DNA from: Phycisphaera mikurensis NBRC 102666 | GTDB taxonomy: Bacteria > Planctomycetota > Phycisphaerae > Phycisphaerales > SM1A02 | DNA: 64,000 bases | Direction: 5' to 3' | NCBI GenBank assembly: GCA_945878575.1 | Contig: CAMDUB010000002.1 | Location: forward strand, 1 to 64,000 | In this document: piece after piece, positions 10,953 through 13,004 of the stretch | Layout: each line of letters starts with the position of its first letter | How positions within the stretch are numbered: the stretch's first letter is position 1 | The notes under the pieces: generated by a model | What the model saw: only the letters and a program-made list of their open reading frames with translations | The model's database searches: none | What the model was told of the DNA's origin: nothing | Made by a program: the position numbers and the translations under genes

Positions 10953-11834
10953 TTACGGACGGTCGAAACTCCCGAGCTCGCCCCAGAACCACTCAAGCTT
11001 CTCGAACGCGACATTCAGTTCCCGCGTGCTGAGTCCCGTCACGGTCGCCATCAGAGCGAATTCGGTCTTCCATGACTCTGGCGGTGCCGACAGCCGAGGC
11101 GGGACCACTTGCCTTGCCCTGCGTCGAAAGGTCTCTACGATCGCCGCGCGAACCTCCATCGGATCAAGTTCACCGCGCTCAATGAGTAAAACAATGTCAA
11201 CAAGATCGCGGGACCGGGTGTTGACGCGGTCCGTCCACGGAGATGTGTACGCGTGAATCTTTTCCGCAAATTGCTGTGCTCGCGGTACCGCGCTCACACG
11301 GGCAGCCGCAACACCAGCAAACCCAAGCAGGTCTTCGCCGACAAGCAACTCCGGTACACCGATGACCGCATCACCGAAGCCGACATCGATGTGAAAGCGC
11401 GCAAAGTCACGCCCCGCCATCCGCGCGATCACGGGGAACGATCCCCCGCCATCGGGTGGTCCTTGAAGTTCGCTGCGTGCCTGCTGGATTTGGAACTCGA
11501 AGAAATCGCCGGGGTCTGTCACGGCCGCGGCACGAAGAGTTTCGTGCGCCGCTGCAAGGCGCGCTGGAAGCGTGGCGTTGGCTCGATCACTTCTGCTGAC
11601 AAGATCGATGTCGCTGGTAGTTCGTGCCTTCGGCCGAAAGCGGAGTTCCATCGCGTAGCCGCCCTTCAGCAACCAGGGCGGATCCTTCTCTGCGAATAGC
11701 CTTGCAAGCAGGCGCTCGATCGCCACCTTGAGGCGCAATCCCTGGATCTGAACGCCGCGCTCCTGCGCCACCGTGCGCAGCCGGTCCTCCAGCGCGTTGC
11801 GAAACGCCTCTGCGTTGGCATAGACCTTGCTCAT
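10953..11834 (-). CDS. abiEii: AbiEii/AbiGii-family nucleotidyltransferase (type IV TA toxin)
   Basis: 'PPWLLKGGYAMELRFRPKARTTSDIDLVSR' nucleotidyltransferase motif; 'RARDLVDIVLLIERGELD'-type segment; overlaps upstream AbiEi-like ORF by 4 nt. Confidence 0.88.
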   Translation of the reverse strand: MSKVYANAEAFRNALEDRLRTVAQERGVQIQGLRLKVAIERLLARLFAEKDPPWLLKGGYAMELRFRPKARTTSDIDLVSRSDRANATLPARLAAAHETLRAAAVTDPGDFFEFQIQQARSELQGPPDGGGSFPVIARMAGRDFARFHIDVGFGDAVIGVPELLVGEDLLGFAGVAAARVSAVPRAQQFAEKIHAYTSPWTDRVNTRSRDLVDIVLLIERGELDPMEVRAAIVETFRRRARQVVPPRLSAPPESWKTEFALMATVTGLSTRELNVAFEKLEWFWGELGSFDRP

Positions 11835-12439
11835 GCAGTCCGTCGCTTCGGATGAGCGCCACTCATGACCTTCCGTCGTGCCGCCCGAAGCGCGCCTGCT
11901 TCAGTACGACCAATGAGCCCACCGCGCACTGCCTTGACAACCGCGCGCTCAAACTGCTCTGTAGGAAAGGTTGCGTCGGTGGAAAGATCCTCCAGCGTGC
12001 GGAGTGGCTTCGTCACACGAAACGACGACAGTTCCTGCGCGTCGCGTACAGGCATGAGCCCGCGGTGCAGCATGCACCCCTTTGGCACAACCTTTCGATA
12101 CGAAGTAGGCACCGTCATGTGGATAGTTGTGGGGATGAACTCGGCAAGCTCGTGGAGTGCAAGCGCGGTGTGATGCGAAATGACGGCCTGAGGTCGATCG
12201 TCATGGCCACGGCTCGAGAGCCACAGCCGCAGGAGGTCATCGTGTTCCGCATGAGGAAGCGTGGGAATGCGATACAGGCCGCGCCCAACCCGATCAAAGT
12301 TGCCCGCTTCGAGGTGGTACTTCAGATGCGCAGAGCCGTATCCCGTCTCCGCGGCCTGTCGAGCCGTGAAGTAACCACCCTGCGTATTCGCAAGGGCGGC
12401 AAGGGTGCGAAGAGCGGACTTTTGGTCGCGGTAGGCCAT
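11831..12439 (-). CDS. abiEi: AbiEi-like antitoxin / transcriptional regulator (type IV TA)
   Basis: N-terminal wHTH 'TQGGYFTARQAAETGYGSAHLKYHLEAGNFDRVGRGLYRI', 'VISHHTALALHELAEFIP', 'VTKPLRTLEDLSTDA'; co-oriented and overlapping with abiEii. Confidence 0.88.
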   Translation of the reverse strand: MAYRDQKSALRTLAALANTQGGYFTARQAAETGYGSAHLKYHLEAGNFDRVGRGLYRIPTLPHAEHDDLLRLWLSSRGHDDRPQAVISHHTALALHELAEFIPTTIHMTVPTSYRKVVPKGCMLHRGLMPVRDAQELSSFRVTKPLRTLEDLSTDATFPTEQFERAVVKAVRGGLIGRTEAGALRAARRKVMSGAHPKRRTA

Positions 12440-12449
12440 GCATGAAACC

Positions 12450-12492
12450 TCAAATCATTTGATGTTATATACGAAAAGACTTTGCAAGTCAA
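12450..12492 (-). promoter_or_regulatory. Sigma70-like promoter with inverted repeats upstream of abiEi
   Basis: Minus strand: TTGACT (12487-12492) - 17 nt - TATAAC (12464-12469); perfect inverted repeat TCAAATCATTTGA (12450-12462) at predicted start site and GACTT-TGC-AAGTC (12478-12490) at -35. Confidence 0.7.
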
Positions 12493-12554
12493 TCGAATTC
12501 ATTCACCCGCATTCAATCGAATTGCCTGAGGCCGCCGCGCTAAATTATCACACC

Positions 12555-13004
12555 GTGCCCCTCCTCCTCGCCCTCATCATCTGCATCGGCGGCGGCGCAG
12601 CCAGCGGCTTAGCAACGCCCCCGGGCGAGTGGTACGCCGCACTCGCAAAGCCAACATGGACGCCGCCCGGATGGGTGTTTGGGCCCGCATGGACCCTGCT
12701 CTACACACTCATGGCGGTGGCCGCATGGACCGTCTGGCGACGCCGCCAACAGACCTCCGTGCGCGTGCCACTGACACTCTTTGCCGTGCAACTGGCGCTC
12801 AACTTTGCGTGGACGCCACTCTTCTTTGGAATGCACCAGCCAGGATTCGCACTGGCGGAAATACTGGTGATGCTGGTGGCGATCATGGCAACTACCGTCT
12901 CGTTCGGGCGGGTCAGCGCGCCAGCGGCGTGGATGATGGCGCCCTACTGCGCATGGGTGTGCTTTGCAACGGCTCTCAACTGGGCTATCTGGAAAATGAA
13001 CTGA
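12555..13004 (+). CDS. tspO: TspO/MBR family (tryptophan-rich sensory) membrane protein
   Basis: GTG start at 12555; 'WYAALAKPTWTPPGWVFGPAWTLLYTLMAVAAW...LNFAWTPLFFGMHQPGFALAEI...'. Confidence 0.93.
   Translation: MPLLLALIICIGGGAASGLATPPGEWYAALAKPTWTPPGWVFGPAWTLLYTLMAVAAWTVWRRRQQTSVRVPLTLFAVQLALNFAWTPLFFGMHQPGFALAEILVMLVAIMATTVSFGRVSAPAAWMMAPYCAWVCFATALNWAIWKMN

Follow-up and report, generated by a model that had tools for sequence, protein, structure and literature searches.

A predicted 33-bp AbiEi operator reaching from the -10 element to the start codon of an abiE operon

Described AbiE operators and the abiE locus

AbiE systems are widespread, and few of their operators have been studied. 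In the described cases AbiEi represses its own operon via inverted repeats overlapping the promoter (PMC3985639, PMC7319586, PMC11062541); one relative of AbiEi, Rv1044, fails to bind the DNA upstream of its own gene (PMC7319586). In Streptococcus agalactiae, where an AbiEi-type wHTH antitoxin is encoded upstream of the AbiEii toxin in one operon, the operator is 49 bp long and consists of two 23-bp repeats separated by 3 bp, which run from the -35 element on and overlap a sigma-70-type promoter with a 17-bp spacer near the start codon (PMC3985639). The AbiEi-family antitoxin of Rv2827c-Rv2826c of Mycobacterium tuberculosis acts on inverted repeats over its own promoter, namely four 23-bp repeats in two pairs with 13 bp within each pair (PMC7319586), and the system of Streptococcus suis ICESsuHN105 is auto-repressed through palindromic sequences of the AbiE promoter, with two separate repeats (IR1 and IR2) and extra binding at oriT (PMC11062541).

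The locus described here lies on the minus strand of the window, by which we mean the whole 64,000-nt stretch of DNA that was analysed. The gene at 11831-12439 encodes a predicted antitoxin/repressor of 202 aa with an N-terminal wHTH and with matches to PADLOC AbiEi (E=1.6e-55) and Pfam AbiEi_4 (E=4.9e-10, above the cut-off), and the downstream gene at 10953-11834 encodes a 293-aa nucleotidyltransferase toxin of the AbiEii/DUF1814 type (PADLOC AbiEii, E=6.5e-84; Pfam AbiEii, E=4.9e-30). The two genes overlap in an ATGA at 11831-11834 and are placed in one operon. NCBIfam gave no match for either of them. Judged by its gene content, the locus is assigned to the type IV AbiE toxin-antitoxin operons, and neutralisation of the toxin by AbiEi is predicted. 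The HTH of AbiEi spans approximately residues 24-44, and a single-sequence structure prediction (mean pLDDT 39, taken as a hint for helix positions only) placed helices at residues 26-32 and 36-44; the latter is expected to be the recognition helix, with residue 36 at its start. The upstream neighbour of abiEi is a divergent TspO gene (12527-12989), located between pfkB and abiE. In a related species (locus L003, 1984-2913) only 52 bp match it and the remaining sequence is different; close species therefore differ in what lies next to abiE.

In gene order, in its sigma-70-type promoter with a 17-bp spacer and in inverted repeats that overlap this promoter near the start codon, the locus is like that of S. 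agalactiae, but its repeat is a 16-1-16 dyad of 33 bp that reaches from the -10 element to the start codon and has another sequence (GCAYAA...) (PMC3985639). The arrangement of two 23-bp repeats 3 bp apart, starting from the -35 element, was not found here; among the homologues of group A, conservation on the upstream side ends 16 bp from the dyad centre. The predicted binding of AbiEi to repeats over its own promoter is shared with Rv2827c, which differs in its four-repeat operator and in being a larger antitoxin (PMC7319586). Likewise, auto-repression of the kind described for S. suis is predicted for the window, where, unlike the two separate repeats and oriT of that element, the core has an exact match at one genomic site only (PMC11062541). 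The contiguous 33-bp dyad thus departs from both published layouts, 23-3-23 in S. agalactiae and 23-13-23 in Rv2827c.

The promoter region and the dyad before abiEi

On the minus strand upstream of abiEi the sequence reads TTGACT-N17-TATAAC followed by ATCAAATGATTTGAGGTTTCATGC-ATG, with the ATG at 12439. The -35 element TTGACT (12492-12487) and the -10 element TATAAC (12469-12464) had been named, with their 17-nt spacing, in a preliminary description of this DNA, and both letters and spacing were confirmed. This candidate promoter scores 10/12, has a spacer within the 16-18 bp of sigma-70-type promoters and is the best promoter match at the abiEi upstream region. Counting both strands, 5 promoter-like matches in the window score 10/12 or better, and in only one place is such a match followed by a 6-1-6 repeat whose centre lies 4-13 nt beyond the -10 element. 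An automated promoter scan, in which T is obligatory at position 6, missed the abiE promoter for that reason. Nothing usable on promoter motifs of planctomycetes came from a literature search. Judged from the -10 element only, transcription is predicted to start 6-9 nt downstream of it, at 12458-12455, and a GAGG at 12451-12448, 8 nt before the ATG, is the likely Shine-Dalgarno sequence.

Directly before the ATG lies the 33-bp dyad 5'-GTATATAACATCAAAT-G-ATTTGAGGTTTCATGC-3' (12440-12472, minus strand, centre 12456), the predicted operator, which overlaps the promoter of the operon: the -10 element falls inside its left arm, the predicted start at its centre and the GAGG inside its right arm. 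Read as 16-1-16, 12 of its 16 positions are paired, a score reached at only 4 of the ~64,000 centres of the window, and the palindrome core TCAAAWNWTTTGA is matched exactly at one position in all 2.79 Mb of the genome. At L002, the second AbiEi-like gene of this genome, no dyad exceeds 9/16. At L003, where the neighbouring pfkB has ~90% DNA identity, the operon lies at the same place with 96% identity; the dyad is identical at 33 of 33 positions and ~7 of 54 bases just upstream differ.

Two inverted repeats had been pointed out here before. TCAAAT-C-ATTTGA is present as described at 12450-12462 and forms the inner part of the 33-bp dyad, and GACTT-TGC-AAGTC is present at 12478-12490, over the -35 element and spacer. 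Taken alone both are weak evidence, since perfect repeats of the 6-1-6 kind occur 23 times in the window and those of the 5-3-5 kind 89 times; it is the comparison of homologues that settles the matter. The proposal of a promoter/operator of abiE was supported by conservation, by co-variation of the arms and by co-variation with the recognition helix of AbiEi, and the extent of the operator was corrected from the 6-1-6 repeat to 12440-12472. The second repeat was rejected as an operator: its arms are kept only in L003 (GACTT-CCA-AAGTC), a near-identical relative, and it looks like a chance occurrence. The suspicion that only one of the repeats is the operator was correct. Upstream of the -35 element there is also a direct repeat, TCAATCGAATT, with copies at 12489-12499 and 12513-12523 that are 24 bp apart; these copies (AATTCGATTGA) were set aside as candidates for additional sites, since L003 has lost one of them.

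Conservation of the dyad and co-variation with AbiEi

A class-wide genome search yielded 18 other genomes with AbiEi homologues, 33-68% identical, and nearly all of the 18 upstream regions have the palindrome adjoining the start codon. The common layout consists of a -35-like T[TG]GAC (in many, at about the position of the -35 element in the window), a -10-like CATAA[AT] (in most) and, directly after it, the core CCTTCAAA-NNN-TTTGAAGG or, alternatively, GTCCAAA-NNN-TTTGGAC, with about seven bases between the core and the start codon. The dyad reaches outward to GCATAA[AT]...TTTGTGC, 33 bp in total, with a group consensus per half of GCATAA[AT]CCTTCAAAW, and its arms change together, as CCTTC/GAAGG or GTCC/GGAC. 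The window carries a divergent member, in which the left arm is without the GC start and the core is CATC/CCTC, not CTTC. The GAGG is not needed by the motif, because GTCC-type sites carry GGAC there.

Wider genome searches and plasmid records extended the set to 67 upstream regions. The results showed that 41 of the 67 have a dyad with 16-bp arms matching in at least 12 of 16 positions, compared with 2.4% of shuffles and with 5.8% of random segments from the same loci, the latter being an upper bound because some loci overlap. Of the AbiEi homologues examined from Planctomycetota, most have a homologous dyad upstream, and matching dyads were found on Deinococcus, Thermus and Simkania plasmid loci. 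In group B, a deeper branch, the length and the outer sequence of the dyad are unchanged and the core differs (GCACRAAACTAAACC). In six actinobacterial plasmid relatives (~28-34% identical) the dyads differ in sequence; one is a perfect 16-3-16 and the others reach 10-12/16. The perfect one, TCACCGAAAGTATCAA-CTT-TTGATACTTTCGGTGA, belongs to a Glutamicibacter plasmid (L100) and lies upstream of an AbiEi family gene at 1498. About a dozen more distant homologues had no clear dyad, a protein scan of the genome contigs found one near-identical locus only, and viral contigs and phage records yielded nothing.

Across these loci the predicted operator keeps a fixed position relative to the start codon, and the promoter-like hexamers shift slightly. 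In most group A homologues CATAA[AT] lies in the left arm two bases further upstream than the -10 element of the window; in several order-level relatives (L004-L007) TTGAC stands 15 bp from CATAAA and hence 17 from the hexamer shifted by two bases, and TGGAC and CATAAT are 17 apart in many class-level relatives. Group B has a conserved TTG ahead of the left arm; the resulting TTGCAC could serve as a -35 element, with TAASNT, 17 bp further on within the right arm and near the ATG, as the -10 element. At group B loci such as L037, L040, L041, L043 and L048, TTGCAC-17-TAASNT ends about 6 nt before the ATG; this spacing suggests a promoter inside the operator and possibly a leaderless mRNA.

Co-variation between AbiEi and its predicted operator, the most interesting part of the finding, was examined by scanning 164 protein columns against 16 operator positions for mutual information, with average-product correction and without choosing a residue beforehand. 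Among close homologues the first and second ranks go to residue 36 paired with base 8 and with base 10 of the operator, and in the full set the pairs Y41-base 13 and residue 36-base 8 lead. Of 28 rows, all 8 with K or R at residue 36 have a GTCC-type core and all 20 with another residue have another core (Fisher p=3e-7, uncorrected for descent). When the helix columns are left out of the tree, this link amounts to about four changes, and the 4 independent pairs, of which 1 is on well supported branches, are too few for a sign test; its phylogenetic independence is limited. L091, which was fetched after the pattern had been noticed, has RR at residues 36-37 with GTCT cores and fits. Exceptions are L035, with R36 and no locatable dyad, and in group B L054 and, in one half only, L038, which have a G-type core without K/R36. 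A PDB profile search returned AbiGI (9hlo) and AbiEi (6y8q), both aligned over profile positions 82-125 only, and residue 36 is therefore not placeable on a solved structure.

Proposed mechanism and alternatives

Very probably, the dyad at 12440-12472 is the operator at which AbiEi represses its own operon, with the recognition helix of its wHTH reading the core and bound AbiEi excluding RNA polymerase; the binding, its stoichiometry, the repression, the start site and the reading of the outer bases are what we infer here from sequence. AbiEi molecules would bind both halves of the contiguous dyad, residue 36 and its neighbours in the recognition helix would read the inner bases (a core of CCTTC-like or GTCC-like type), and another part of the wHTH, e.g., the wing, would probably read the conserved outer GCAYAA/TTRTGC. 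Since the dyad covers the -10 element, the predicted start site and the ribosome-binding site, bound AbiEi would exclude RNA polymerase and keep toxin and antitoxin low, and a fall in AbiEi would derepress the operon.

The likely ribosome-binding GAGG in the right arm, adjoining the start codon, would also be compatible with an RNA hairpin in the abiE leader, acting as an attenuator or by sequestering the ribosome-binding site, in which case the dyad would not be a protein-binding site. We regard such a hairpin as highly improbable: with the predicted start at the dyad centre the left arm would stay untranscribed and only one arm would be in the transcript, the unpaired positions comprise 37 G-T against 30 A-C and thus lack the G-T preference of RNA pairing, and the core bases co-vary with a DNA-recognition helix. 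Moreover, GTCC-type sites replace the GAAGG that might serve as ribosome-binding site yet stay symmetrical, which indicates that symmetry is what is kept. The co-variation with AbiEi residues likewise argues against binding of the dyad by some other host-encoded regulator instead of AbiEi; the site also accompanies abiEi across different phyla and on plasmids and its core has one exact match in the genome, and this explanation is accordingly held to be highly unlikely.

With regard to GACTT-TGC-AAGTC, its arms survive in L003 despite a change in the loop, and the operators of S. agalactiae and Rv2827c have several promoter repeats (PMC3985639, PMC7319586), which would accord with a second AbiEi site and a two-site operator as in S. 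agalactiae. This is very unlikely, however, given that the repeat is absent from the homologues other than L003, is unrelated to the dyad in sequence and is of a kind found 89 times in the window, and that group A has no conserved dyad in that region. The abundance of perfect 6-1-6 and 5-3-5 repeats in the window would also be expected if both repeats were chance features of an AT-rich promoter, an account that is hardly credible for a dyad whose place, length and outer sequence are conserved across phyla and whose arms co-vary.

Beyond this locus, auto-repression by AbiEi through a contiguous 33-bp operator may well be common to a large AbiEi clade (Planctomycetota, and plasmids of Deinococcota and Chlamydiota) that shares the outer GCAYAA/TTRTGC and in which the inner core switched several times together with residues 36, 37 and 41, a generalisation that we hold with moderate confidence. 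If true, this would amount to a readable code of specificity by which cross-regulation between co-resident AbiE systems is avoided. The conserved operator and the protein-DNA correlation would make the pairing of AbiEi with its promoter predictable from sequence alone.

Long AbiEi-like frames were also observed in the genomes G516 and G622, with about eight in either, and G486, with a single one. At L048 (1438-3078, plus strand) the AbiEi N-terminal part runs into a long 547-aa frame without a pilin. At five loci, L036 (1405-2814, plus strand), L039 (568-1965, minus strand), L050 (529-1983, minus strand), L051 (1468-2934, plus strand) and L052 (643-2043, minus strand), an AbiEi-like domain of ~170-200 aa with a wHTH is fused in one frame to a prepilin/DUF1559 pseudopilin, with GFTLVELLVVI at about residues 230-270, an unexpected placement of a DNA-binding antitoxin fold ahead of a secreted pilin.
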